Of a stretch of DNA of 27,328 nucleotides, positions 5,755-18,127 are shown piece after piece. The stretch lies in NCBI GenBank assembly GCA_937871985.1, contig CALMPB010000371.1:1-27328 (forward strand), read 5' to 3'. The notes below the pieces were generated by a model that made no database searches, had not been told where the DNA came from, and saw nothing but the letters and a program-made list of their open reading frames with translations. This stretch comes from an uncultured Burkholderiaceae bacterium (GTDB lineage Bacteria > Pseudomonadota > Gammaproteobacteria > Burkholderiales > Burkholderiaceae). The stretch's first letter is position 1, and each line of letters opens with the position of its first letter. The translations under genes were made by a program, and so were the position numbers.

Positions 5755-7131
5755 ATGACAACGGGTAGAGCAAGGGTCACGCCGTTGCGGCGTCGGCGCA
5801 AGCCGGGCGGCGACACGAACGCACCCGGACTGACTGTCGTCGACCTGTTCAGCGGTGCAGGTGGGCTCTCCGAGGGCTTCCGTCAGGCTGGGTTCACCGT
5901 GATCGCCGGATCGGACAATGATCCGGATGCTCTGGCGACCTATGCCGCCAATTTTCCCGAAGCCGAGGCCATTCTCGGTGACATCCGCCTGCCCGAAGTG
6001 CGCGCGCGGATCAGAGAGGCGGCGCGCTCCGCAACCGTGTTGGTTGGCGGGCCACCCTGCCAGGCGTTCTCGCAGGTCCGCAATCACAGCCGTGTGATCG
6101 ATGACCCGCGAAATTCGCTATACCGCGAGTTCGTCGAAACTCTTCGAGAAGCCGAGCCGCTTGCCTTCGTCATGGAAAATGTGACGGGTATGGATCAGAT
6201 GGGCATCCGCGAGCAGATCCTCGCCGACCTGTCATTGGCCGGCCGCTACGACGTGATCGCGCAGGTGGTCGATGCCGCCGACTTCGGCGTGCCGCAGACG
6301 CGCAAGCGGCTGCTGTTCATCGGTGTTCGGGCCGGAGAAGGAATGACGCCGCCGGTGCTTGCCGGCACGAGTGCCGTCGGTTCCGTCACCCTGGCGCGCT
6401 TCACTGGCAGCCGCCGCCCGCGCTATCAGCTTGTCGTTCAGCAGAATCTGGCAAGCATGCAGCTTGGTGAAGCACTTGCGGACCCGGAGAATTTAAGCGC
6501 CGTCACCGCGCTCCAGGCGTTGTCGGATTTAGCCTCGCTGGCCATCGGCAATCGCGACGACGCTTTGGATTGGTCGGCGCTGCCGGCGCCGGCCAGCGCT
6601 TATCAGCGGATGATGCGCGAAGGTGCCGGCCAGCGCGTGACCAATGTCCAGGTGCCTCGCATCAATCCCGACACGCGGCTGAGACTCGAGGGCATCCCGC
6701 AGGGCGGCAACCACCGCGATCTCGACGAACGCCTACTCGATCGCTTCCTGACCGGACAGCGCTGGGGGCAGGACAATGGATCGGGCAAGCTCTCGCGCAA
6801 GCATTTCTACGCCTATCGCCGGCTGCATCCGGGGATGTGGGCTTGGACGCTCAACACCAAAGCGGATTCGGTTTATCATTATGAGGCTGCGCGCGCGCTG
6901 TCAGTGCGCGAGTTTGCCCGGCTTCAATCCTTTCCCGATCGGTTCGTCTTCACCAGCGATCCGCGCCGCGGCATGATTCCAGGGCGCCATGACGGCGGAC
7001 CGGCGCATTCGCGCTATCGTCAGGTCGGCAATGCCGTCCCGCCCTTGCTTGCGAAAAATGTCGCCCAGAGCCTGATGGCCGAGCTAAACGCTTGCACGCA
7101 GCGCGAAAAGATTCGTGCCGATGCGGGGTGA
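5755..7131 (+). CDS. DNA (cytosine-5) methyltransferase
   Basis: This 458-aa enzyme transfers a methyl group from AdoMet to C5 of cytosine in a specific DNA site. The conserved motifs are in order: I DLFSGAGGLSEGF (30-42), IV GGPPCQAFS with catalytic Cys102, VI FVMENVTGM, VIII QTRKRLLFIGVR, a variable target-recognition region at about residues 220-380, IX LSVREFARLQSFPDRF, and X YRQVGNAVPPLLAKN. A basic N-terminal extension of about 25 residues precedes motif I. GGGGAG upstream of the ATG is a good ribosome binding site. The restriction endonuclease gene follows after 3 bases. Protecting the host against that enzyme is its expected role. Confidence 0.95.
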   Translation: MTTGRARVTPLRRRRKPGGDTNAPGLTVVDLFSGAGGLSEGFRQAGFTVIAGSDNDPDALATYAANFPEAEAILGDIRLPEVRARIREAARSATVLVGGPPCQAFSQVRNHSRVIDDPRNSLYREFVETLREAEPLAFVMENVTGMDQMGIREQILADLSLAGRYDVIAQVVDAADFGVPQTRKRLLFIGVRAGEGMTPPVLAGTSAVGSVTLARFTGSRRPRYQLVVQQNLASMQLGEALADPENLSAVTALQALSDLASLAIGNRDDALDWSALPAPASAYQRMMREGAGQRVTNVQVPRINPDTRLRLEGIPQGGNHRDLDERLLDRFLTGQRWGQDNGSGKLSRKHFYAYRRLHPGMWAWTLNTKADSVYHYEAARALSVREFARLQSFPDRFVFTSDPRRGMIPGRHDGGPAHSRYRQVGNAVPPLLAKNVAQSLMAELNACTQREKIRADAG

Positions 7132-7134
7132 TTG

Positions 7135-8223
7135 ATGGCGGAACCGGAAGTCGTCGCGAAAGAGGAAGAAGCGGTTGAGCGCGCGTTCGGCGCCGACAAT
7201 CGTAACAGGCTGATCGACCTCTATTTCGAGCAACACGGCGACATCGCCCCCGGCACGGCGTGGGCGCATGTCTATCGGTTGCTTCTCTGGCTCGACCCGA
7301 CGACAGGTCTGGCGCATTGCTATGAGAGCGACAAGTCGCAGCCGGGCAAACCCTGGTATGCGCGCTCCCTCGCTTTTCACGACTGGTTGGCCACGGCGCT
7401 CAACGTCGAACCGAACGCGCTGGTTGAGACGATCGACTGGCTGTTCATCAAGGCATGCGCCGATCTGTCGGCGGTGATGCTGCGGCGGGAAGCCAAGCTC
7501 GCCGAAGTGGCAGCGCGGCAACGCGCGCCTTATGCTGATCGCGCTTTCCCCGAACCGGGCAGTGATCCCGAGCTGGTGTCGATCATCCGGCACATCATAG
7601 AGCCCTATCTCAAGAGCGAACCGGCCGAGACAACTTGGCATGGGCTCACCCAGCGCGTGCGGGCGTATCTTTCCGTCCAGAACAAGCGCAAGAATCTGGT
7701 CGGCGAAGGTTTCGAGGATGTGCTCGCCCAAGCCGTCCGGCGTGCATGCAAGCTCCCCGACGATCAGATCTTCACGCGTAGCCTGCTCTACGACATTCCC
7801 GGTTTCAACCGGGCCAAGGTCGGGAGCAAGGAGAACAAGGTCGATCTCGCCATAATCCGCCCGTCGATGCGTACACTGGTCACTGCAAAGTGGAGCGTGC
7901 GCGCCGATCGCGAGAAGCAGTTCCCGACCGAATATGCCGAATATATCAGCGCACAGTCGGAGAACCGGAAGTTCGAATATGTCTTCGTGACCAACGAGTT
8001 CGATCCTGCCCGGCTGATGCGTGCCTGCGAAAATCTTCACAACAACCACCCGATGTTCGACTGCGTCGTCCACATCAACACCGACGGGCTCAAGGCCTGC
8101 TATGGCAGCGCCGTCGGCGGCGACGCGCGCTCGACCGAGACCCAGCGCCGCGTGCTCCAGCATATCGAAGAGGGCCGGCTGATCAGCCTCGAGCGATGGT
8201 TCGACCGGCTAATCGCGCAGTAA
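7135..8223 (+). CDS. Type II restriction endonuclease, CCGG-family signature
   Basis: This 362-aa protein sits directly after the methyltransferase (3-base gap) and is its expected partner nuclease. The C-terminal half contains NLVGEGFEDVLAQA (Glu194), then KVDLAIIRP (Asp237), then TAKWSVRADREKQ. The last motif has Lys252, Arg256, Asp258 and Arg259, so the spacing is K-x3-R-x-D-R. This matches, as I recall it, the catalytic lysine plus CCGG-reading residues of NgoMIV and Cfr10I/Bse634I-type enzymes. A BsaWI-like family is likely. The ATG at 7135 is preferred; the TTG one codon earlier is an alternative. The predicted site therefore contains CCGG with unknown flanks. No defect is seen. Confidence 0.8.
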   Translation: MAEPEVVAKEEEAVERAFGADNRNRLIDLYFEQHGDIAPGTAWAHVYRLLLWLDPTTGLAHCYESDKSQPGKPWYARSLAFHDWLATALNVEPNALVETIDWLFIKACADLSAVMLRREAKLAEVAARQRAPYADRAFPEPGSDPELVSIIRHIIEPYLKSEPAETTWHGLTQRVRAYLSVQNKRKNLVGEGFEDVLAQAVRRACKLPDDQIFTRSLLYDIPGFNRAKVGSKENKVDLAIIRPSMRTLVTAKWSVRADREKQFPTEYAEYISAQSENRKFEYVFVTNEFDPARLMRACENLHNNHPMFDCVVHINTDGLKACYGSAVGGDARSTETQRRVLQHIEEGRLISLERWFDRLIAQ

Positions 8224-8260
8224 TAGCCAGGCGCACCGCCGGTTCCTATCTTCCGGCCTG

Positions 8261-8686
8261 ATGGACAAGTTATCGCCCTCCCGCCGCAGTTCCAACATGC
8301 GCGCGATCCGTTCGAAGGATACCAAACCAGAATTGGCCGTGCGAACTGCGCTGCGCGGGGAGGGGCTGACGGGTTACAGGCTGCACAGGAAGGATTTGCC
8401 TGGCCGGCCCGACATAGCCTTCATAGGCCGGCGTAAGGCGATCTTCGTGCATGGCTGTTTTTGGCATGGCCACGATTGCCGGGAGGGGGTGAGGCAACCA
8501 CGCTCCAAGCAAGATTATTGGCTTCCAAAGATTGCCGGCAACCGGGCGCGTGACGAACGGCATGTTGCGGCGCTCGCCGCTCTTGGCTGGGATGTTCTGG
8601 TGCTCTGGGACTGCGAGATCAAAGACGGTCAGCTAGCGCAACGCCTCTGGTCCTTCATGTTCGCCGAGCCAGGTCATAGGAGCTGA
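8261..8686 (+). CDS. vsr: Very short patch repair endonuclease Vsr
   Basis: This 141-aa enzyme nicks DNA 5' of the T in T:G mismatches that arise when 5-methylcytosine deaminates, so it limits the mutational cost of the adjacent C5 methyltransferase. Family hallmarks: SPSRRSSNMRAIRSKDTKPELAVR at the N-terminus, LPGRPDIAFIGRRKAIFVHGCFWHGHDC in the centre (catalytic Asp51 and His69/His71, zinc-binding Cys residues), then KIAGNRARDERHVAALAALGWDVLVLWDCEI. The length is close to that of E. coli Vsr. It follows the restriction gene by 37 bases in the same direction and so closes the R-M operon. Confidence 0.96.
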   Translation: MDKLSPSRRSSNMRAIRSKDTKPELAVRTALRGEGLTGYRLHRKDLPGRPDIAFIGRRKAIFVHGCFWHGHDCREGVRQPRSKQDYWLPKIAGNRARDERHVAALAALGWDVLVLWDCEIKDGQLAQRLWSFMFAEPGHRS

Positions 8687-9031
8687 CGCTCCTTACGGTA
8701 CGGCATCTCGAATCGGTGGTTTCAAGCTGGCGATCGGCAGTCTTTGGGACTCGAACTTTCCCTGCAAAAAACCTAGAGGGTATCGGTGGAGGTATCGAAT
8801 TAGAAACATCAAAGATAATAGCGTAAATACAACTACTTGCCGGTGATTTCGAGTCCTCTTCTGTCCATAGACGTCTACCAACGTCCGCGATCGTCTAGCT
8901 GGTTTACGCATCGTCGCTCTACAAACGAGGATCAATCCCACGTTGCCTCGTAGGGCCCGTGCATTTGCGCAGCTCGAACCGCGGCAATCAGATTTCGTTT
9001 CGCCGCCTCGGGCCAATGGTTATCAAAACGC
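8687..9031. other. 345-base gene-free stretch with a possible attachment-site scar
   Basis: No convincing gene is visible. The stretch is less GC-rich than its surroundings in parts (for example 8765-8835). It contains TTCGAGTCC at 8849-8857, resembling a tRNA T-arm end, followed by GTCCATAGACGTCTACC and an ACGTCY-N4-RCGTCC block. Such blocks often flank integration sites of P4-type integrases next to tRNA 3' ends. No complete tRNA or integrase is present. Confidence 0.3.
8871..8905 (+). repeat. ACGTCY-N4-RCGTCC...GCTGGTTT block, left copy
   Basis: ACGTCT, four bases, ACGTCC, eleven bases, then GCTGGTTT. A similar block with the same order and orientation is at 18357-18388. The two bracket the HNH, RNA-repair and AbiE genes. 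The match was found by eye and is imperfect, so common origin is uncertain. Confidence 0.25.
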
Positions 9032-9931
9032 ATGGCTTTCGGCGTCTTCATCCACCGATCTGATTCGATCTACGACGACACACCGGCCGAACGATATCAG
9101 TTTCCCCGACAGTATCTGGAGCGAGCGCGCGCCTGCGTGGGAGACTGGATCGTCTACTACGAACCCCGCAAGGTGCTTGGCACGAAGGGCTACTACGCTG
9201 TCGCCAAGGTCGAGCGCGTTGTTCCCGATCCATCAGCCTCCGATATGTACCTCGCGCTGATCCAGCCCGGCAGTTATCTGGACTTCGCGAACCCGGTCCC
9301 ATTTGCTGATGAGAGCGGCCCGATTGAACGCGGGGTCCTGAACGATGCGGGACGTATATCCGGGCGCGCACAAGCCGCCGTGCGAGGGTTGTCGCCAAGT
9401 GACTTCAACCGGATCGTCGAGGCGGGCTTGGCCGACGACAATCCACTGCTGCCGCGAACTGGCACCGTGATCACTGACTACACTTTGCACGAAGAGCGCG
9501 CACCCTTCGTCTTTGAAGAGACGCGGGAGCGGGTTGCTGCGCTCGTGTCGCGGGTTGTTCGCGACCGCGTCTTCCGCAGGATCGTCCTACGGGCTTATGA
9601 CGAACGCTGTGCCGTCACAGGGCTGAAGCTCATCAACGGTGGCGGGAGAGCCGAAGTCGAGGCGGCACACATTCGTCCGGTCGAGGCAAATGGCCCCGAC
9701 ATTGTCAGCAATGGCCTTGCACTGTCCGGAACCGCCCATTGGATGTTCGATCGCGGGCTGATCGGACTTGACGACGACCTCCAGATCCTAGTGTCGCGAC
9801 AGGCGAACGATCAGGACGGTATCCGCGGCGTCATCAACAAGGGCGGTCGCCTACTGATACCGCCGCGAGAGGCCGATCGCCCTCACCCGCAATTCGTCAG
9901 GTGGCACCGGGAGAACTGCTTCAAACATTGA
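9032..9931 (+). CDS. HNH endonuclease with N-terminal recognition-like domain
   Basis: A 299-aa protein. The C-terminal half is an HNH nuclease of the HNH_2 type: YDERCAVTG (Cys193), EVEAAHIRPVEANGPDIVSNGLALSGTAHWMFDRGLIGL, with His213 and His236 in the metal-binding and catalytic positions. The N-terminal 115 residues (GDWIVYYEPRKVLGTKGYYAVAKVERVVPDP) look like a compact beta domain reminiscent of PUA/EVE-like folds that read modified bases. That part is inference. Similar two-domain proteins act as modification-dependent nucleases. It stands alone between the R-M operon and the convergent rtcA, and there is no clear ribosome binding site ahead of the ATG. Confidence 0.85.
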   Translation: MAFGVFIHRSDSIYDDTPAERYQFPRQYLERARACVGDWIVYYEPRKVLGTKGYYAVAKVERVVPDPSASDMYLALIQPGSYLDFANPVPFADESGPIERGVLNDAGRISGRAQAAVRGLSPSDFNRIVEAGLADDNPLLPRTGTVITDYTLHEERAPFVFEETRERVAALVSRVVRDRVFRRIVLRAYDERCAVTGLKLINGGGRAEVEAAHIRPVEANGPDIVSNGLALSGTAHWMFDRGLIGLDDDLQILVSRQANDQDGIRGVINKGGRLLIPPREADRPHPQFVRWHRENCFKH

Positions 9932-9958: not shown

Positions 9959-10984
9959 TTACCGTGCGCCCGTTTTGCGGACGAGATGGCAGCCGTTCGT
10001 CTGCTGCTCGAACACCCAGCGCTGGCCGGTGAATCGCTCGATCACATCGCGCGCGGTCAGCGAATGCTGGCTCGGCTTCACCGTCGTGAAGCTGCCGCCA
10101 CCGGCGATGGCGAAAGGCAGCAACAACTGATCGGCCAGATAGGGGCCGGCAAAGGCATCGCTCGCCAGATAGCCGGCCATCCGGTGCGCCGAGGTCTTGG
10201 CGAGTGACTCCGCCGAGACGCCGAGCTTGCCGAAGCCACTGACCACTTCGGTGACGTGCTCGAACGCGGCCTCCAGTAGAAGGATCGTTCCCGGGCCCTG
10301 CTCGGCCGGCAGCTCGCGCACGGCGAACGCTTCCTCCGGCCACTCGGCCAGGAATTTTCGCGCCGTCTTGATCTCACGATCGGCGATATCGAACGGCAGG
10401 CCTGCAAACACCGCAGTCGCAGACCGCGAGAGCAGGGCACCACGCTCGAGGCGATCGATCTGTGCGAGGGGAGCCGGAGTGATATCCACCTCGATCCGAC
10501 CACCGCCGCGCGGGTAGAATCCGTGGCGTACGAGCCGCGCGGACACGCGCGGGCCCATCCGCTCGATGATCGGCACGAAGCTCTTCGCGATGAAGTCGAA
10601 CGGCGGCGCAAGCATGTTATGCGTGCCGCCCTCGAGCACCAGGCGCGACGGGGCACTTGCCAGTACGAGCGGCATAAGCACGGTCTGGAATACGAGACCC
10701 GTGCTCCCCGCGGTGCCGACGGCAAAATGATACTCGCCGGCCTCCACGCGGCCGGGTGCAAAGCTGATCTCCGACGACCCGACGGTCAGCCCTTCGCAGT
10801 GGGCGCCGCCAAGCCGGCACGCAGCTTCGATCGCGGTCACATGCTGGCGCATCAACCCCGGCTTGGAGCGTTTGCCGCGCACATTGGTGATGCGGAACGG
10901 CTGGCCGGTGACGAGCGACAGTGCGCACGCATTGCGTACAACCTGCCCGCCACCTTCACCTTCCGAACCGTCGATCTCAATCAT
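9959..10984 (-). CDS. rtcA: RNA 3'-terminal phosphate cyclase RtcA
   Basis: RtcA uses ATP to convert RNA 3'-phosphates to 2',3'-cyclic phosphates, through an adenylylated histidine. The 341-aa product matches E. coli RtcA in length. Signatures are IEIDGSEGEGGGQVVRNACALS at the N-terminus, RGKRSKPGLMRQHVTAIEAACRLGGA, EGGTHNMLAPPFDF, and the C-terminal SFTTVKPSQHSLTAR, whose His is the likely nucleotidylated residue. The start at 10984 matches the family N-terminus; the open frame continues upstream into rtcB without family similarity. It lies 38 bases after rtcB in the same direction and is the last gene of the RNA-repair operon. Confidence 0.96.
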   Translation of the reverse strand: MIEIDGSEGEGGGQVVRNACALSLVTGQPFRITNVRGKRSKPGLMRQHVTAIEAACRLGGAHCEGLTVGSSEISFAPGRVEAGEYHFAVGTAGSTGLVFQTVLMPLVLASAPSRLVLEGGTHNMLAPPFDFIAKSFVPIIERMGPRVSARLVRHGFYPRGGGRIEVDITPAPLAQIDRLERGALLSRSATAVFAGLPFDIADREIKTARKFLAEWPEEAFAVRELPAEQGPGTILLLEAAFEHVTEVVSGFGKLGVSAESLAKTSAHRMAGYLASDAFAGPYLADQLLLPFAIAGGGSFTTVKPSQHSLTARDVIERFTGQRWVFEQQTNGCHLVRKTGAR

Positions 10985-11022: not shown

Positions 11023-12249
11023 CTAGCCCTTGACGCACACCACCTGCTTCAACGTGTGGACGATCTCGACCAGATCCGACTGCGCGGCCATCACGGCCTC
11101 GATCGGCTTGTAGGCCTTCGGCGTCTCGTCGATCACACCCTCGTCCTTGCGGCACTCGACGCCCGCCGTGTCGGCGATGTGCTCGTCGAGCGTCACCAGC
11201 TTCTTGGCGGCCGTCCGGCTCATCACCCGACCGGCACCGTGCGAGCAGCTGTCGAACGATTCCGGGTTGCCCAGCCCGCGCACGATGAACGATTTCGCGC
11301 CCATTGAGCCCGGGATGATGCCCATCACACCTTTGGCGGCGCGTACGGCGCCCTTGCGGGTGACCAAGACATTCTGGCCGAAATGGTTCTCGCGCTGGAC
11401 GTAGTTATGGTGGCAGTTGACCGCCTGCATCTCCGCGTCGAACGGCTTAGCAATGTGGCCCCGGAGCGCGCGGATGACGTTGGTCATCATCATGCGCCGG
11501 TTCAGCGCGGCAAAGTCCTGTGCCCAGCCGACCGCCTCGACATAGTCGTCGAAATGGTCGGTCCCTTCCGGGAAGTACGCCAGATCCTCATCGGGGAGGT
11601 TGATGTACCACTTGCGCATATCCTGCTTGGCCAGTTCGATGAAGAAGGTGCCGATCGCATTGCCCACGCCACGCGAACCGGAGTGCAGCATCACCCACAC
11701 CCGCTGCTCCTCATCGAGGCACAGCTCGATGAAATGGTTGCCGGTGCCAAGCGTGCCCAGGTGCACGAGATTGTTCGTGTTCTTGAGCCGCGGGTGCTTG
11801 TCGGTCAGTCGCTCGAAGCGCTCGGCGAGCGTCGCCCACGCCTCGACGATCGCCGGCGGCGGGCTGCCCCACGAACCGTGATCTCGCTGACCGCGACCGA
11901 CCGAACGGCCGTGCGGCACAGCCTGCTCGATCGCCGAACGAATGGCTTCCAGGTTATCCGGAAGATCGCTGGCCACGAGCGAGGTACGCGCCGCCATCAT
12001 GCCGCAGCCGATATCGACACCGACCGCCGCCGGAATCACCGCACCCTTGGTCGGGATCACCGAACCCACGGTTGCGCCGATGCCGACATGAACGTCGGGC
12101 ATCGCAGCCACATGCTTGAACACGAACGGCATCTGCGCAGCCCGCATGAGCTGGGCGCGCGCGCCATCCTCGACCGACACGCCGCGGGTCCACATCTTGA
12201 TCGGCACGCCGCCCTCGACGTGCTGGTAGTCGAACATTGCTTCGGTCAT
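11023..12249 (-). CDS. rtcB: tRNA-splicing/RNA-repair ligase RtcB
   Basis: RtcB is a Mn2+/GTP-dependent ligase joining RNA 2',3'-cyclic phosphate or 3'-phosphate ends to 5'-OH ends. The 408-aa product has the same length as E. coli RtcB. Visible active-site elements: GVDIGCGM with Cys82, NNLVHLGTLGTGNHFIEL, LHSGSRGVGN, HNYVQRENH and SHGAGRVMSR, whose His is the guanylylated residue in the family. The ATG at 12249 follows GGGAGG at a good distance; an upstream frame extension crosses the Y-RNA array and has no family similarity. It lies 26 bases after the last Y-RNA-like element, so its mRNA leader begins at or within that RNA. Confidence 0.97.
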   Translation of the reverse strand: MTEAMFDYQHVEGGVPIKMWTRGVSVEDGARAQLMRAAQMPFVFKHVAAMPDVHVGIGATVGSVIPTKGAVIPAAVGVDIGCGMMAARTSLVASDLPDNLEAIRSAIEQAVPHGRSVGRGQRDHGSWGSPPPAIVEAWATLAERFERLTDKHPRLKNTNNLVHLGTLGTGNHFIELCLDEEQRVWVMLHSGSRGVGNAIGTFFIELAKQDMRKWYINLPDEDLAYFPEGTDHFDDYVEAVGWAQDFAALNRRMMMTNVIRALRGHIAKPFDAEMQAVNCHHNYVQRENHFGQNVLVTRKGAVRAAKGVMGIIPGSMGAKSFIVRGLGNPESFDSCSHGAGRVMSRTAAKKLVTLDEHIADTAGVECRKDEGVIDETPKAYKPIEAVMAAQSDLVEIVHTLKQVVCVKG

Positions 12250-12275: not shown

Positions 12276-12400
12276 GCCGGCGACGAGACGTGGCGAGACA
12301 TTTCCCTGAGCTATCCGGTTTCCCGGAGGCGGAGTTGGACCGCCGACCTCCTGCCTTGCGGCAGGCGCTCTGACCTGTAGTCCCGCCGGCATTCGCCGGC
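12276..12400 (-). ncRNA. Y-RNA-like element 5 (D-loop-permuted tRNA module)
   Basis: The ends GCCGGCGA and TCGCCGGC are perfectly complementary. After the shared AAUGCC comes GGCGGGAC, pairing with GUCUCGCC to make the second helix. The enclosed module reads as a tRNA opened in its D loop. In order it has GAGC (D stem 3' strand), CCUGCC-GCAA-GGCAGG (anticodon-like arm with a GNRA cap), AGGUC, a T arm GGCGG-UCCAACU-CCGCC, a capped acceptor UCCGG-GAAA-CCGGA, UA, and GCUC (D stem 5' strand). The T loop departs from the usual UUCRANY. This is the element nearest rtcB. Confidence 0.8.
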
Positions 12401-12412
12401 TTTCGGTGCGGT

Positions 12413-12516
12413 GCTGGCGACGAGGTTAGGTGAGACATCCCGGATCACTCCGGGGCGGATTCGAACCGCTCGGCCTTTCGGCCTTTCCCGATGTAGTCTC
12501 ACCGGCATTCGCCAGC
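12413..12516 (-). ncRNA. Y-RNA-like element 4 (minimal, no D arm)
   Basis: The shortest unit, 104 nt. The ends GCUGGCGA and UCGCCAGC pair perfectly, and GGUGAGAC pairs perfectly with GUCUCACC in the second helix. The module contains GGCC-GAAA-GGCC, a T-arm-like GCGG-UUCGAAU-CCGC, and an acceptor-like CCCGGA-GUGA-UCCGGG capped by a GNRA tetraloop. It then returns directly to the second helix with no D arm, so a full tRNA-like elbow seems impossible. Confidence 0.78.
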
Positions 12517-12527
12517 TTCAATTCGGT

Positions 12528-12660
12528 TCGTGACGACCAGGTGTTTGACAGACGTTCCTGCTCTACCAACTGAGCTACGGGTCCATGGCAGACCCGGCGG
12601 GGCTCGAACCCGCGACACGGCGATTATAAGTCGATGTAGTCCATCAGGCATTCGTCACGA
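12528..12660 (-). ncRNA. Y-RNA-like element 3 (permuted tRNA with internal CCA)
   Basis: The ends UCGUGACGA and UCGUCACGA pair perfectly. GAUGGAC pairs with GUCUGUC through wobbles. Inside are a 7-base-loop hairpin CGA-CUUAUAA-UCG like an anticodon arm (UAU), a T arm GCGGG-UUCGAGC-CCCGC, an acceptor stem CGGGUCU/GGACCCG whose strands are joined by GCCAU, and a complete D arm GCUC-AGUUGGUA-GAGC. The joining bases read as a discriminator G plus CCA plus one base. It looks like a tRNA circularly permuted through its 3' CCA end. Confidence 0.82.
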
Positions 12661-12670
12661 TAATCTCGGC

Positions 12671-12793
12671 CACGGCGACGAGGTGGTCGTGAAACAGCTT
12701 CATGCTCTATCCAACTGAGCTACGAACTTGCGCCCGGGCGGAGTCGAACCGCCGACCCTGAAGTCCGATGTAGTTCCACTGGCATTCGCCGTG
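12671..12793 (-). ncRNA. Y-RNA-like element 2 (anticodon-permuted tRNA module)
   Basis: The ends CACGGCGA and UCGCCGUG pair perfectly, and GUGGAAC pairs with GUUUCAC. The module is a near-complete tRNA opened at the anticodon loop. It has CUUCA (anticodon stem 3' strand), GGGUC, a T arm GGCGG-UUCGACU-CCGCC, an acceptor CGGGC-GCAA-GUUCG with GNRA cap, UA, a D arm GCUC-AGUUGGAUA-GAGC, A, and UGAAG, which pairs with CUUCA. The D loop keeps the GG and the T loop keeps UUC, as needed for a tRNA-like elbow. The D and T arms are close to alphaproteobacterial tRNA-Arg. Confidence 0.85.
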
Positions 12794-12803
12794 ATGAGGT
12801 TGG

Positions 12804-12960
12804 GTCGTGGCGACAAGGAGCGGCGAGACGGCGGTCCTTAAGCTACGTTCCGGCGGCGGGATTCGAACCCGCATCTCCCGTTCGGCCTTGCGGCTTTCCG
12901 AGCGCTTTACTCGTCGGACCTGTCTGTGGAGGATGTAGTCCCACCAGCATTCGCCACGAC
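12804..12960 (-). ncRNA. Y-RNA-like element 1 (first of the array)
   Basis: It starts 7 nt after the rsr stop and is the longest unit (157 nt). The ends GUCGUGGCGA and UCGCCACGAC form 10 perfect pairs, and GGUGGGAC pairs with GUCUCGCC. The module has an outer helix GGUCC/GGACC, then AAGC/GCUU as a D-like stem, a larger arm with a CC-GCAA-GG tip where the anticodon arm would be, a T arm GCGGG-UUCGAAU-CCCGC, and a much reduced acceptor-like turn. It therefore seems opened in the D loop, as in element 5. Confidence 0.8.
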
Positions 12961-12967
12961 CCAATTC

Positions 12968-14515
12968 CTATACTTCAATCTCCTTGATGATCTCGACCCA
13001 GTCCCGCGTCTCGCCAGTGGCGAAGCGCGCGATTGTGTCGAATACGGCGTCGGAAAAACCCCCGACATTCAGGATGTCCGCCCGGCTCTGCGCCTGCGTG
13101 GTCCCGTACGGCTGGATGTCGACGCAGACGAGCTTCGCCCCCGGATTGCGGGTTTTCAGCTTGTTCCACTCCTGCATCGTGGCCGTCGAGCCGCGCCGGC
13201 TGGCATCGACCCAGGACTCGTTGTCCGAGACGATGACGACCAGATCGACCTTGGCACGTTCCGCGTTCAGCATCGCCAGCGGTGCCGAGACATTGGTCCC
13301 GCCACCCCCGACCGCCGCCAGCTTCGCCGCATTCACGGCGACCCGGGCATTGGCCTCGAGCTTCAGCTTCACGACCGCCTGTTCGAACGGCAGCACGCGC
13401 GCCTCACGGTTGGTCCGCAACATTGCCGCCGCGACCAAAGCCGCAACATCGATGCAGCGTACCTTCGACGAAGCACCCTTGCGGTACCCCGTCGCCGGCG
13501 AGCTCATCGACCCCGATACGTCAGGGCAGACGACGATCCGGCCCGGCACCGAAGGCACTCGCGCGACCGACTGCTCGAGCGCATCCTCCAGCGCCGCCTG
13601 GACCTTGAGCGGCACGCCGTCGCCGGCCTGACCCAATGCTACCATCAACTGGTAGGGCATCGGCCGGACCTTCGCGATCGCGTTCGCATCGGCCAGCCGT
13701 GCGGCCACTGCCTCGGTAACTCCCGCCACGTCGAACGCGCCCTTACGGGCCAACGTGTTGAGGTTCATCCGCAGCGCCTGCCACCCGATCCGCGTCGACA
13801 GCCCCGCCCAATCCTCCGCGGTCAGCGGAAAGGCGGTGAGCCACTCGAACGGCACCGGCGGCAGCGGCAGCGACCGATCGGCCTTCCACGCCTCGAAAGC
13901 GGCGATCTCGGCGGGCAGCTCAGCGACGTCGTAAGGACGTCCGATCAGCCAGCCATAGAAAGCCTTGCGCGCCGCATCGGCGGGCCTGGGGTGAACCATA
14001 CGGACCACGTCCGCCAGGCTCGGATCCTTGCCCGTCGCCGCTGCCATCAGCTGCGGCATCGACGCCTGCTCCAGCCAGCGCTGGACCAGCCGCTTCGGCC
14101 GCGAGCCAAGCGACGTCCGCCCGACCTGGCCCGAGCGCATGATCTGCACGAAATTGCGCAGCATGCGGCCGTTATCGATCACACGGTTGAACACCGGGAC
14201 CGCAACGTCAGGGTCGGCGACCGTGAGATATGCGGCGAGCAACGCCGGCATATCCTTCATCGCGCCCGAGCGCCGAGCGTAGATCGCGGCTTGCGCCACG
14301 AAATACGGATCGACCGCCTTGGCTGCTTCGAGCACGCCGGCAAGCTGCGTCTCCGCAACGCCATAGAAATTATCGGCCAGCGTGCCGGTCGCCGCGAGCT
14401 GGGCGAGCTTCGCCTCCGGCCCATAGGCATAGGCCGGCGCGCCTTCGCAGTTCACGGTGTCGGTACGCGGCAGCAACTTGGCCACGGCCGAAGCAAAAAG
14501 TCCCTTGTTGGCCAT
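12968..14515 (-). CDS. rsr: Rsr, bacterial Ro60 orthologue (TROVE + vWA domains)
   Basis: This 515-aa protein is the Ro60-related RNA-binding protein Rsr. The TROVE domain (about residues 20-320) is the HEAT-repeat ring that binds Y RNAs and single-stranded RNA ends; it shows NFYGVAETQLAGVLEAAKAVDPYFVAQAAIYARR and MLRNFVQIMRSGQVGRTSLGSRPKRLV. The C-terminal vWA-like domain carries a MIDAS: D332-V-S-G-S336 in VVCPDVSGSMSS, a later GGGGTNVSAPL, and VIVSDNESW. Length agrees with Ro60 proteins. GGAGG lies 8 to 12 bases before the ATG, only a few bases after the CCA of the tRNA-like element. Five Y-RNA-like elements follow directly, as expected for its ligands. Confidence 0.95.
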   Translation of the reverse strand: MANKGLFASAVAKLLPRTDTVNCEGAPAYAYGPEAKLAQLAATGTLADNFYGVAETQLAGVLEAAKAVDPYFVAQAAIYARRSGAMKDMPALLAAYLTVADPDVAVPVFNRVIDNGRMLRNFVQIMRSGQVGRTSLGSRPKRLVQRWLEQASMPQLMAAATGKDPSLADVVRMVHPRPADAARKAFYGWLIGRPYDVAELPAEIAAFEAWKADRSLPLPPVPFEWLTAFPLTAEDWAGLSTRIGWQALRMNLNTLARKGAFDVAGVTEAVAARLADANAIAKVRPMPYQLMVALGQAGDGVPLKVQAALEDALEQSVARVPSVPGRIVVCPDVSGSMSSPATGYRKGASSKVRCIDVAALVAAAMLRTNREARVLPFEQAVVKLKLEANARVAVNAAKLAAVGGGGTNVSAPLAMLNAERAKVDLVVIVSDNESWVDASRRGSTATMQEWNKLKTRNPGAKLVCVDIQPYGTTQAQSRADILNVGGFSDAVFDTIARFATGETRDWVEIIKEIEV

Positions 14516-14530
14516 CGTCCAACCTCCAAC

Positions 14531-14609
14531 TGGTCAGGGCGGCAGGATTTGAACCTGCGGCCTCCCGCTCCCAAGGCAGGCGCTCTCACGCAGACTGAGC
14601 TACGCCCTG
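14531..14609 (-). tRNA. tRNA-Pro(UGG)-like element with encoded CCA in the rsr leader
   Basis: A cloverleaf can be drawn fully. Acceptor CAGGGCG/CGCCCUG is perfect, with C1-G72 as in bacterial tRNA-Pro. D stem is GCUC/GAGC, anticodon arm CCUGC-CUUGGGA-GCGGG (anticodon UGG), variable AGGCC, T arm GCAGG-UUCAAAU-CCUGC, discriminator A, and encoded CCA at 14533-14531. The D loop (AGUCUGCGUGA) has C where G19 should be, which would break the usual G19-C56 elbow pair. It lies between the sigma-54 promoter and rsr, so it is probably cotranscribed. It could be a tRNA mimic or decoy, a decayed tRNA gene, or less likely a working tRNA. Confidence 0.7.
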
Positions 14610-14619
14610 TGAATTCCTT

Positions 14620-14647
14620 GGGGCGGCCGGCCCATTCCGACCGCCCC
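14620..14647 (-). other. GC-rich hairpin in the rsr operon leader
   Basis: GGGGCGG and CCGCCCC form a 7-bp stem around a 14-base loop. It is located between the predicted sigma-54 start (about 14687) and the tRNA-Pro-like element. It could be an RNA stability or processing element, or simply part of the leader; no T-tract follows, so an ordinary terminator is unlikely. Confidence 0.4.
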
Positions 14648-14698: not shown

Positions 14699-14713
14699 GC
14701 AGGAGGCGTGCCA
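14699..14713 (-). promoter_or_regulatory. Sigma-54 promoter of the rsr-Y RNA-rtcBA operon
   Basis: The minus strand reads TGGCACGCCTCCTGC. It has the -24 element TGGCACG, exactly 10 bases between the GG and GC pairs, and CTGC as the -12 element, all matching sigma-54 consensus. Transcription would start near 14687 and run leftward through the tRNA-like element into rsr. The divergent neighbour is rtcR, a sigma-54 activator. An AT-rich tract (14745-14785) lies between this site and rtcR, where bending or enhancer binding would be expected. Confidence 0.88.
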
Positions 14714-14850: not shown

Positions 14851-16443
14851 ATGAAGCCGCTCACCGTTATCGGATTCCTGGGCTCGACGCTGGATGCGAG
14901 CAAGTTCGGCCCGTCCCGCTGGAACAAGTGGCGCCCGACCGTCGGGCTGACGATGCACGAGGATTTGCGGGTCGATCGGCTGGTAATGCTTCATGGCACG
15001 CCGCACCGCCGTCTTGCCGAATATGTCGCCGAAGACATCGCTTCGGTGTCGCCCGAAACCAGTGTGGAAATGCGCCTGCTCGATTTCCGCGATCCATGGG
15101 ACTTCGAGGAAGTGTACGGCAAGCTGCTCGATTTCGCCCGGGCCGAACCGTTCGATCCCGAGGCCGAGGATTATCTGATCCACATCACCACCGGCACGCA
15201 CGTCGCGCAGATCTGCCTCTTCCTGCTGACCGAGGCGCGTTATCTGCCGGGCAAACTGCTCCAGACCCAACCCGAACGCGGGACCGCCAATCCGGCTGGC
15301 ATTTGGAACACGATCGACCTCGACCTGTCGCGCTACGACAGCATTGCCACGCGTTTTGCGGCGGCGAGCGCCGAGAGCACCTCGTTTCTCAAATCCGGCA
15401 TCGATACGCGCAATGCCGCCTTCAACCGGATGATCGACGAGATCGAGCGCGTCGCTCTTCGATCCAAGGCACCCATTCTGCTCATGGGACCGACGGGCGC
15501 GGGCAAGAGCCTGCTCGCGCGCCGCATCTATGAGCTCAAGAAGCTCAAGCACCAGGTCGTCGGGCCTTTCGTCGAGGTAAATTGCGCGACGCTCAAGGGC
15601 GACAGCGCGATGTCGGCGCTATTCGGCCATCGCAAGGGCGCGTTCACCGGCGCGGTCGCCGATCGGCCGGGATTGCTGCGCTCGGCCGACAAGGGAATGC
15701 TGTTCCTCGACGAGATCGGCGAGCTTGGCCTCGACGAGCAGGCGATGATCCTGCGCGCGATCGAGGACAAGCGCTTCCTGCCCGTCGGCGCAGACAAGGA
15801 GGCTGCGAGCGATTTCCAGCTGATCGCCGGCACCAACCGTGACCTGGGCGAGGCGGTCGCCGCAGGCGCGTTCCGGGATGACCTTTATGCGCGACTCAAC
15901 CTCTGGACGTTCCGCCTGCCGGGGCTTGCTGATCGGCGGGAAGATGTCGAGCCCAATCTCGATTATGAGCTGGACCGCTTCGCCGAGCGCGAAGGGGATC
16001 GGGCCAGCTTCAACAAGGAAGCCCGCTTGCGCTACCTCGCCTTCGCCACATCGGCTGAGGCAACATGGCCGGGTAATTTCCGCGACCTCGCCGCCAGTAT
16101 CACCCGTATGGCGACGCTCAGTCCCAAGGGCCGCATCGATCTCGAGTGTGTCGATGCGGAAATCGGGCGCTTGCGCCGACTCTGGTCGGGCCAGGTGGAC
16201 AATGGTGCCGGTATTCTCACGGATGTGCTCGACGAGCAGGCGATCGTCGAGATGGACTTGTTCGATCGCGTCCAGCTTGCCGAAGCGCTTCGGGTCTGCC
16301 GCGCCAGCCGGTCGTTGTCAGAGGCTGGGCGAACCCTGTTTAATGCATCACGCGCCCGACGCAGCAGTTCCAACGATGCCGATCGTCTGCGCAAATATCT
16401 CGCGCGCTTTGGACTGGACTGGGGAGCGGTAAAGGTAGGCTGA
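14851..16443 (+). CDS. rtcR: RtcR, CARF-domain sigma-54-dependent activator
   Basis: This 530-aa protein activates rtc operons with sigma-54 polymerase. Residues 1-185 form the RtcR/CARF-like sensor (TVIGFLGSTLDASKFGPSRW, LHITTGTH-like segment IHITTGTHVAQICLFLL), a Rossmann-type nucleotide-sensing fold. In enterobacteria it is thought to respond to products of RNA damage. The AAA+ domain has Walker A GPTGAGKS (213-220), the sigma-54 contact loop GAFTGA (263-268) and Walker B LFLDEIGEL (284-292). The C-terminal 90 residues end in a helical region for DNA binding (LAEALRVCRASRSLSEAGRTLF). It is divergent from the operon it should control. Its own ribosome binding site is weak (AAGG adjoining the ATG). 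Confidence 0.95.
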   Translation: MKPLTVIGFLGSTLDASKFGPSRWNKWRPTVGLTMHEDLRVDRLVMLHGTPHRRLAEYVAEDIASVSPETSVEMRLLDFRDPWDFEEVYGKLLDFARAEPFDPEAEDYLIHITTGTHVAQICLFLLTEARYLPGKLLQTQPERGTANPAGIWNTIDLDLSRYDSIATRFAAASAESTSFLKSGIDTRNAAFNRMIDEIERVALRSKAPILLMGPTGAGKSLLARRIYELKKLKHQVVGPFVEVNCATLKGDSAMSALFGHRKGAFTGAVADRPGLLRSADKGMLFLDEIGELGLDEQAMILRAIEDKRFLPVGADKEAASDFQLIAGTNRDLGEAVAAGAFRDDLYARLNLWTFRLPGLADRREDVEPNLDYELDRFAEREGDRASFNKEARLRYLAFATSAEATWPGNFRDLAASITRMATLSPKGRIDLECVDAEIGRLRRLWSGQVDNGAGILTDVLDEQAIVEMDLFDRVQLAEALRVCRASRSLSEAGRTLFNASRARRSSSNDADRLRKYLARFGLDWGAVKVG

Positions 16444-16590: not shown

Positions 16591-17460
16591 TCAGGCAGTC
16601 TTTGCCGTCAGCCGTTTGCACGACGGCCCTACAAGATTCCACACCGCATCAATGATGGAATTCAGACCAACGCCTTCGAGTTCGACGGAAGCGGCATAAG
16701 CACGCCATTGGCGCTGCTTCGTTTCGTCCTCCATCATCTCGGCTGAAAGCCCGGGCGGCCGTTCGGTCGGGATAGGTGTTCCGCGCCGCTCGAAAGTCGC
16801 GCGGATGGCCACATCCAGATCCTCGGAGGCAATCTCCAGACTCCTGGGGATGGCCCATAGGTCATAATAGTCCTTCATCCGGCCATTGAGCACACCGAGC
16901 GCCACCATCGCCTGGAACTTCTCGGCAATGACCGTCGCCGGCGGGTAGGACCTAATGTGCGGAACAGGGAGATCGAGCAGCGTCGGGTAGTCGAGTTGTT
17001 GAGCGGCATCCGCCAGCGCATCGCCGAAGGCGATGTCGATCGTCACGGGTATTCGTGTGCGCTCGAGATAGGCCGCCGTCTTGAGTCTGACGCCGCCGTA
17101 TTCCATTTCCTCGCGGATCGCTGTGGCAACCAATCCATCGGCGTCGAACACAAGGCCGTCGTCTCCTTCAATTTGCATGATTGCTCGGAAGTCGGCGACC
17201 AGCTTGTCGGGATTGGCGTCGCCATAGCCCAGGAAGTCGGCATCTCGCGTGACTCGATTGTCGTCGTCGATCCACGCCGTGACCAGCATTCCGCCCTTGA
17301 GCACGAATCGCTCGCGATATTCCGAGACCGACAGCCGATAGAGGAGGCGTTCAAGCGCGAAGCGGACCAGCAGAACGTCGAAAGCGCGGCCTTCTTTTCG
17401 CGAAATGTTGAGCAGGCGATCCTTGACCGACTTGGCGAGATTGACGGGCGATCTAGCCAT
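16591..17460 (-). CDS. abiEii: AbiEii-type nucleotidyltransferase toxin
   Basis: The 289-aa protein is an AbiEii/AbiGii family toxin, the second gene of type IV AbiE abortive-infection/toxin-antitoxin systems. The nucleotidyltransferase core is visible: FVLKGGMLV (residues 52-60, the hG-G motif) followed by TRDADFLGYGD with Asp73 and Asp75 as metal ligands. Farther on come VTIDIAFGDA and the family feature YPPATVIAEKFQAMVALG...RMKDYYDLW. The start at 17460 (MARSPVNLAKSVKDRLL) overlaps the antitoxin stop by 8 bases; upstream codons of the same frame lie inside abiEi and are not family-like. Some family members modify tRNA acceptor ends, but the target of this one is unknown. Confidence 0.92.
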   Translation of the reverse strand: MARSPVNLAKSVKDRLLNISRKEGRAFDVLLVRFALERLLYRLSVSEYRERFVLKGGMLVTAWIDDDNRVTRDADFLGYGDANPDKLVADFRAIMQIEGDDGLVFDADGLVATAIREEMEYGGVRLKTAAYLERTRIPVTIDIAFGDALADAAQQLDYPTLLDLPVPHIRSYPPATVIAEKFQAMVALGVLNGRMKDYYDLWAIPRSLEIASEDLDVAIRATFERRGTPIPTERPPGLSAEMMEDETKQRQWRAYAASVELEGVGLNSIIDAVWNLVGPSCKRLTAKTA

Positions 17461-18073
17461 TGGCGGTGAGGGCCTCGAGATAAGGGCGCATGGTCTTCCA
17501 GGCACCGCCGGCCTTGGCTCCTTCGGCGATTGCGTTCGGTGTCGCCTTGCGTTGCTCGATTGCCGCACGAAGTCCTTCGACTGCGACCGAACGATCGACC
17601 AGCTTAGGATTGCGGAACGCATCGGCGAGGGTCTTCGAAATCGAATAGATAGGTACGTTTACGCCGGCGATCGTATGATGCTCGACGCCTTGGCGAAGAT
17701 AGGGGTCGGTGAAGCGTACGATCCGCAGTGGCGGATAGGATTGCACTGGCGACCAATCGCTCGTGCCGATCGCCATCCATATCCGTCTCGGCATTTGATC
17801 AGTCAGGCCGTGAAAGGCTAGGGCCGAGGTCAGGGCAATGACGCCCTTGGGAACTCGGATCGCAGCTTCAGCCAGTATTTGGTGCTCCTCAATCTCTGAG
17901 TCGCGCCGCTGATACAGGCCACGCGAGATGCGCTCGAGTTCACCTTCCTCGACGGCCCGCGCTATCGTTTGCGGACCGATACCGGCGGCACGCAGCTCTC
18001 CCGCGCGCCTCATTGTATGGGCGGTAAATAGACTGCGAAGCTTTGTCCGTTGCGAGATGGGCCTCGAGGCCAT
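17453..18073 (-). CDS. abiEi: AbiEi-type antitoxin / transcriptional autorepressor
   Basis: A 206-aa AbiEi antitoxin with an N-terminal winged helix (AHTMRRAGELRAAGIGPQTIARAVEEGELERISRGLYQRRD) and the AbiEi C-terminal region (VIALTSALAFHGLTDQMPRRIWMAIG, IYSISKTLADAFRNPKL). In characterised AbiE systems this protein represses its own promoter by binding inverted repeats and prevents toxicity of AbiEii. The ATG at 18073 is preferred because it has AGAGG about 9 bases upstream. A start at 18127 would add 18 residues but place the palindromic operator inside the gene. It overlaps abiEii by 8 bases. Confidence 0.9.
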   Translation of the reverse strand: MASRPISQRTKLRSLFTAHTMRRAGELRAAGIGPQTIARAVEEGELERISRGLYQRRDSEIEEHQILAEAAIRVPKGVIALTSALAFHGLTDQMPRRIWMAIGTSDWSPVQSYPPLRIVRFTDPYLRQGVEHHTIAGVNVPIYSISKTLADAFRNPKLVDRSVAVEGLRAAIEQRKATPNAIAEGAKAGGAWKTMRPYLEALTANG

Positions 18074-18120
18074 GTGACGAATCCTCTGATGGATTGCATC
18101 TTTATCAGAGGTTTTGTCAC
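18074..18120. promoter_or_regulatory. Composite 47-bp palindrome at the abiEi start (operator)
   Basis: Outer arms GTGAC (18074-18078) and GTCAC (18116-18120), and inner arms CCTCTGAT (18083-18090) and ATCAGAGG (18104-18111), share the same centre. The dyad adjoins the abiEi ATG and its inner arm includes the ribosome binding site. This matches the inverted-repeat operators known for AbiEi autorepression; the match of function is inferred. Confidence 0.65.
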
Positions 18121-18127
18121 ATGTCAT

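Follow-up and report, generated by a model that had tools for sequence, protein, structure and literature searches.

The 27,328-nt stretch of DNA from an uncultured Burkholderiaceae bacterium that we analysed (the window) carries on its minus strand a leader, rsr, five small-RNA units, rtcB and rtcA, in this order, with rtcR divergent on the plus strand (Table 1). The locus thus contains what is expected of an RtcR-regulated RNA-repair operon, namely a divergent rtcR, a sigma-54 site, rtcB and rtcA. A sigma-54-like site conforming to a looser pattern was found 5' of rsr in all of the 81 rsr loci compared (that of the window and the best 80 of 516 relatives), a set in which distant rsr loci are under-represented because the best 80 were used. 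The closest rsr found is that of Sphingomonas immobilis (94% identity), from which we infer that the window most likely derives from a sphingomonad.

Table 1. Features of the rsr-rtc locus of the window
Feature	Positions	Strand	Evidence
rtcA, RNA 3'-terminal phosphate cyclase	9959-10984	-	profile match
rtcB, RNA ligase	11023-12249	-	PF01139, 432 bits
Y RNA unit 5, class D5: D-loop-permuted tRNA-like module, anticodon arm capped by GCAA	12276-12400	-	
Y RNA unit 4, class M4: hairpin, T-arm and closed acceptor-like hairpin, no D-arm	12413-12516	-	
Y RNA unit 3, class A: T-arm, closed acceptor stem, full D-arm, mini anticodon stem-loop	12528-12660	-	
Mini anticodon stem-loop of unit 3, CGA-CUUAUAA-UCG, triplet UAU	12621-12633	-	
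Y RNA unit 2, class A, classical YrlA order; module nearest permuted tRNA-Phe	12670-12794	-	
Y RNA unit 1, class D1: Y stem and D-loop-permuted tRNA-like module with pseudoknotted acceptor-like helix	12800-12964	-	
rsr (divergent Ro60/Rsr protein)	12968-14515	-	profile searches and structure match
tRNA-Pro(UGG)-like element with encoded CCA, between promoter and rsr	14531-14609	-	ARAGORN, Rfam
Leader hairpin, loop AAUGGG	14620-14647	-	predicted fold
Sigma-54-type promoter site TGGCACGCCTCCTGC	14699-14713	-	pattern match, 0.09 expected by chance
rtcR, sigma-54 activator, divergent	14851-16443	+	NF038308, 823.7 bits vs. cut-off 650

The product of rsr matches the structure of Deinococcus Rsr (2nvo) over its full length (residues 22 to 503, E 5.6e-15) and passes the cut-off for the Ro60 vWA domain, while it scores under the curated cut-offs of the TROVE (18.9 bits, < 23) and NCBIfam Rsr (71.2 bits, < 900) models. 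Near full-length matches to it are also given by two solved TROVE domain-containing proteins (PDB 9l5y and 9kop), for neither of which a describing publication was found in our literature search. The leader hairpin, a strong one located downstream of the sigma-54 site, has a comparable counterpart in 75 of the 81 loci and is possibly a further structured RNA. The D-loop of the tRNA-Pro(UGG)-like element is, as judged by eye, devoid of the usual GG; ARAGORN predicts a tRNA-like element at the same place in 21 of the 81 loci, with an apparent anticodon that differs in some of them, and an ordinary tRNA-Pro(UGG) is encoded separately in Sphingobium SYK-6. The operon is flanked (5755-9931 and 16591-18127) by genes of a DNA cytosine methyltransferase, an HNH restriction-type nuclease and an AbiEi/AbiEii pair, which are likely defence genes.

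The five units that fill the space between rsr and rtcB, described as Y-RNA-like in the first-pass annotation, are almost certainly Y RNAs of YrlA type. They are adjacent to an Rsr (Ro60) gene, all five have long-range pairing of their 5' and 3' ends with a conserved core, and four of them contain a permuted T-arm/acceptor/D-arm module, the exception being unit 4, which has no D-arm. In a permissive search each unit gives a full-length match to the Rfam YrlA model (RF02553), with E values from 3.1e-14 to 0.31 (66 bits for unit 3, 61.9 for unit 2, 41.7 for unit 4, 32.6 for unit 5, and 21.0 for the remaining match). Since none reaches the gathering score of 69 bits, the default Rfam scan of the window reports none of the five, and we file them as YrlA-type Y RNAs and not as formal RF02553 members. 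Linear tRNA genes were considered and rejected, as ARAGORN and Rfam recognise none within the units. Also present are the helices quoted in the first-pass annotation, including the common GACUACA strand, except in unit 2, where it reads AACUACA. The paired ends, given there as 8-10 bp, are real yet span 8 to 14 positions (14 in unit 1), and the units are 104-165 nt long instead of about 104-157 nt. That annotation made no mention of tRNA-like modules, of an anticodon-like hairpin in unit 3 or of the tRNA-Pro-like element 5' of rsr. Single sequences of units 4 and 5 fold better than their shuffles (z -4.43 and -4.32), and those of units 2 and 3 do not (z -1.05 and -1.33).

A search of the 81 loci for paired units yielded 343 candidates, of which 339 were kept and four, under the score limit, were dropped. 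Two to seven units are present in 80 of the 81 loci (window and best 80 of 516); the sole locus without any is L076, where the contig ends inside rsr. Five copies, thought at first to be unusual, turned out to be the commonest number (33 of the 81 loci, range 0-7), followed by four (27 loci) and three (13 loci), while two, six and seven units occur in four, two and one loci, respectively. The covariation of the two helices in homologous loci, on which the first-pass annotation had made its proposal depend, was found when the 3' strands were exchanged among the units of one locus in 200 rounds. In the 339 units the outer nine positions are paired in 93.3% of cases, as compared to a mean of 75.0% in the swaps (maximum 76.4%), and helix 2 in 96.9%, as compared to 80.9% (maximum 81.8%), although in the latter test the best register was picked for each unit, which biases the observed value upward. 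Chance helices can thus be rejected, because pairing with the unit's own partner exceeds that of same-locus swaps for both helices.

Model R1, built from 27 class A units with unit 3 of the window in the training set, recovers all five window units, as well as units in other Pseudomonadota and in phage contigs. Full-length R1 matches with E < 1e-10 were obtained in 10 of 246 Sphingomonadales genomes and in 11 of 398 genomes of a phylum sample; only full-length matches were counted, because those confined to model positions 28-105 resemble neighbouring tRNA genes. The Rfam YrlA model scores above its cut-off in four of the same 246 genomes. Its weak matches are unspecific, being present in 6 of 14 control genomes, with none above the cut-off. 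Most of these genes are therefore missed by standard annotation: the Rfam cut-off is passed by 11 of the 64 units in 14 loci (L001-L014).

Results of the comparison of inner modules point firmly to tRNA mimicry in several topologies. We assigned the 339 units to classes A (120), D1 (65), D5 (42), S (33) and M4 (30), the labels being rough and 49 units remaining as 'other'. Class A, to which units 2 and 3 belong, has the classical YrlA order of 3' anticodon strand, T-arm, acceptor hairpin, D-arm and 5' anticodon strand, with the permutation point at the anticodon stem. In class D5 the order is Y stem, D 3' strand, capped anticodon arm, T-arm, acceptor hairpin and D 5' strand, and this arrangement is reproduced by the predicted fold of unit 5 alone. 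The whole D5 structure is paired in 97.6% of cells vs. 93.5% in shuffles, with 15 pairs changed on both sides, a result reached by none of 500 shuffles. The D stem is invariant among the 32 aligned units and therefore uninformative as to covariation; by eye, its GAGC/GCUC is replaced by GAAC/GUUC in Labrys and by GCGC/GCGC in L310 and L317. On the same visual inspection, units of the latter two loci resemble mimics permuted in the D-loop; their D-arms are Pro-like and Leu-like, and a variable arm accompanies the Leu-like one.

Class D1, represented by unit 1, has an added acceptor-like helix, one strand of which lies at the module start, so that it crosses the D helix and forms a pseudoknot. 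Both this X/X' helix (4.00 vs. 3.32 unmatched) and the D-extension helix (4.47 vs. 3.77) exceed all 1000 partner swaps, with the caveat that kinship of sequences alone can beat such swaps without any structure. Several compensating pairs are nevertheless present in this class (UGUC/GACA, UCCC/GGGA and UGGC/GCCA, and GGUCC/GGACC, GGCCC/GGGCC and GACC/GGUC); in unit 1 itself X/X' is just 3 bp long. Class M4 (unit 4) retains a hairpin, the T-arm and a closed acceptor-like hairpin, and class S units are short, with the T-arm missing in most but not all members.

When the window units were compared with tRNAs in linear and permuted orders, with 40 mononucleotide shuffles per unit, the best permuted scores of units 2 and 3 were 66 (tRNA-Phe; shuffle maximum 24) and 52 (tRNA-Arg; 27). 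Unit 1 scored 39 in both orders (28), unit 5 scored 35 permuted and 42 linear (25), and unit 4 scored 30 in both orders, which is unconvincing against a maximum of 29. In linear order, what unit 5 matches is the tRNA-Pro-like element adjoining rsr. A single tRNA identity common to all units is rejected by these scores.

Within the window only unit 3 bears the mini anticodon stem-loop. It sits in a 15-nt segment that has no counterpart in the Rfam YrlA consensus, and the minimum-energy fold predicted for unit 3 alone does not contain this 3-bp hairpin. The comparison with relatives, where in many units the hairpin lies immediately 3' of GACUAC, indicates that it is very probably real. A hairpin with a 7-nt loop of any sequence occurs in 138 of the 339 units, the shuffles giving 84.6 (maximum 101); if U33 and a purine 37 are required, the count is 86 vs. 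8.0 (maximum 16). Adjacent loop lengths show slight or zero excess. Canonical loops on a stem of at least 3 bp were found in 71 of the 339 units (shuffle mean 1.9, maximum 6 in 100 rounds), and on a stem of at least 2 bp in 88 (mean 6.1, maximum 14), the latter in only 60 of the 81 loci (window and best 80 of 516). The whole structure of the class bearing this stem-loop is paired in 99.0% of cells vs. 88.9% in shuffles, with 19 pairs changed on both sides, which none of 500 shuffles reached. In 27 related units the hairpin stem itself has compensating changes, one pair being C-G in 17 and G-C in 10, and another A-U in 21, C-G in three and U-A in three. Phage rsr loci contain the loop in 11 of 44 units (47 before removal of repeated ones) vs. 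0.97 in shuffles (maximum 4). In further loci it is present in 12 of 56 units vs. 0.66 (maximum 3), these 56 including L314 (from the genome of L018, the four-unit locus of Sphingobium sp. SYK-6), L315 (with sphingomonad-like units) and one spurious L289 hit.

Among the 88 loops there are 26 triplets, the commonest being GUC (19), GGU (8) and GAU (8). In a set of 27 units with CATC-N7-GATG, irrespective of loop sequence, variation is confined to position 32 and the triplet; U33, A37 and C38 are invariant while the triplet changes. Position 38 is associated with position 36 in a manner that partly resembles tRNA: U36 occurs with A38 in 33 of 33 units (22 of 22 real tRNAs with A37) and C36 with C38 in 35 of 38 (10 of 19 real tRNAs with A37), while units with A36 do not follow the rule of real tRNAs for position 38. 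Over all seven letters, 40 of the 88 loops are identical to an anticodon loop from the tRNAs of two sphingomonads (17.7 with column-shuffled triplets, maximum 34); when each distinct loop is counted once, a weak excess is left (9 of 38, with 73 of 2000 shuffles as high).

The triplet also changes fast between near relatives. In five groups of units at least 75% identical (22, 8, 18, 14 and 13 units, 75 in all), the triplet mismatch of 0.53, 0.56, 0.45, 0.27 and 0.52 exceeds that of the other columns (0.17, 0.14, 0.17, 0.18 and 0.09) in each group, yet other fast columns exist as well, the triplet columns ranking 0-41 of 77-150. For instance, at 91% identity the units of L042 and L054 disagree at every triplet position, and two tandem near-copies in Xanthomonas sacchari have the loops CUCCGAA (CCG) and CUCUUAA (CUU). 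In the 83 loop units that remain after exclusion of five D1 units from the 88, triplets that are not bacterial anticodons are not avoided (7 vs. 6.5 expected), and there is no excess of triplet diversity per locus: in all 22 loci with at least two loops these differ, vs. 20.1 by chance (601 of 5000 as high). As for unit 3, its triplet UAU does not occur as an anticodon in two sphingomonad tRNA sets, both incomplete. As the three key letters of the loop change fast, these RNAs may be bait for tRNA-cutting enzymes.

The presence of Y RNAs beside rsr and the mimicry of tRNA in permuted form are already documented in the literature available to us in part. YrlA of the Salmonella rsr-yrlBA-rtcBA operon (RF02553) likewise adjoins rsr and rtcB, has paired GGCGAAUGC...ACUAC ends and comprises a circularly permuted module of T-arm, closed acceptor and D-arm, as do units 2 and 3. 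The window differs from it in having five units, with scores under the Rfam cut-off, of which unit 3 has the inserted 15-nt mini anticodon hairpin and units 1, 4 and 5 have other architectures. A pseudoknotted acceptor, such as that of unit 1, is a feature of viral tRNA-like structures of TYMV type. Unit 1 shares with these structures, the permutation type of which is outlined in the available part of PMC11472068, a tRNA-like fold attained via non-standard strand order and a pseudoknot, but it has no free 3' end and is attached to a bacterial Y stem, and no sequence kinship is claimed. The Deinococcus complex of Y RNA, Rsr and PNPase (RYPER), as presented in the accessible text of PMC8394870, has in common with the window an Rsr homologue and Y stems, whereas the window array lies in an RtcR-controlled repair operon and contains tRNA mimics. 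In the literature searched, partly available and with the primary YrlA papers outside its scope, we found neither the mini anticodon loop with its variable triplet nor the D-loop permutation nor the pseudoknotted module, and we consider them new, a judgement that could be wrong. The latter two extend the range of routes by which RNA imitates tRNA.

While the Y RNA structure of the units is well supported, we infer their function and the binding of the five RNAs by Rsr. By analogy to Salmonella and Deinococcus, broken tRNAs would activate RtcR, the sigma-54 polymerase would transcribe the operon, and Rsr would bind the conserved Y stems of the five RNAs. Their variable modules display tRNA parts, namely T-arm, acceptor and D-arm, in a permuted order that leaves no acceptor end free, and many units of the family additionally offer a 7-nt anticodon-like loop on a short stem. 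Such a set of mimics might engage enzymes that attack or process tRNAs, anticodon nucleases foremost, as bait or competitive inhibitor, and RtcA and RtcB would meanwhile repair the genuine tRNAs. In the available text of PMC7790460, tRNA fragments activate the Salmonella operon and the tRNA-like domain of YrlA is suggested as a competitive inhibitor of an anticodon nuclease, the role of Y RNA in the RNA-repair operon being outside the scope of the studies presented there. The explanation as a whole, an RtcR-controlled array of five Y RNAs acting as Rsr-bound decoys, is the likeliest of those considered, though offered tentatively, and a decoy or bait function as such, with which the structure is compatible as far as sequence can tell, is to be viewed with similar reserve. 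A changing triplet in a conserved loop would make the role of these Y RNAs directly testable, as each unit predicts its tRNA or nuclease.

The main rival, itself possible if rather doubtful, is that the units are ordinary gate or tether RNAs of Rsr, whose tRNA-like ends would either obstruct the Rsr ring or bring in PNPase or other proteins; the copies would then provide dosage or different adaptors, and the hairpin would be a structural cap with drifting loop letters. The hairpin is indeed missing from many units, non-anticodon triplets are not avoided and other columns change equally fast, and a role with Rsr and PNPase is already known for YrlA, whose stem binds the former and whose tRNA-like end binds the latter (PMC8394870, the part available). 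Against this rival speak the invariance of U33, A37 and C38 around a changing triplet, the association of positions 36 and 38 and the recurrence in phages and distant bacteria. Another reading, that of functionless, decaying tRNA duplicates, would suit those units in which T- or D-arms are missing, but it is hardly credible: it is already contradicted by covariation, with its compensatory changes, and the array is retained in 80 of the 81 loci (window and best 80 of 516).

Two further roles appear improbable to us. The units may act as sponges or substrates of enzymes that modify or process tRNA after recognising its T-, D- or anticodon arm, and several of the triplets are GUN, the anticodon form used by queuosine insertion. 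Modification of YrlA by DusA and TruB, noted in the available part of PMC8394870, agrees with this, but 26 different triplets suit no single anticodon-modifying enzyme. An equally low probability is given to a sensor or amplifier, in which the same nucleases would cut the anticodon-like loops and fragments with cyclic-phosphate ends would feed RtcR. The loops resemble nuclease sites and RtcR responds to tRNA fragments, while YrlA fragments were not detected in Salmonella under the inducing condition tested (both from the available text of PMC7790460), and the array lies downstream of the very promoter that it would have to trigger.

The bait reading can be widened to Rtc operons and some large phages, which would maintain an evolving repertoire of Y RNA baits against tRNA-cutting toxins, with interchangeable anticodons on a constant tRNA-like scaffold retargeted by three letters; in this general form we regard it as rather unlikely. 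For jumbo phages, the available part of PMC7824862 mentions an Rsr-like protein together with a tRNA-like partner. The Y-like RNAs of large phages, known from sequence, share with the window the Rsr homologue and Y units, some with anticodon-like loops, but are phage-borne and more divergent. A loose DNA pattern tried on viral contigs was unproductive; among the matches listed, the unit finder fired in 21 strand scans over 120 loci, several of them spurious. Some phage contigs may carry Y-RNA arrays larger than the bacterial ones. One stretch of a viral contig (L266) contains seven full-length R1 matches in about 2.3 kb.
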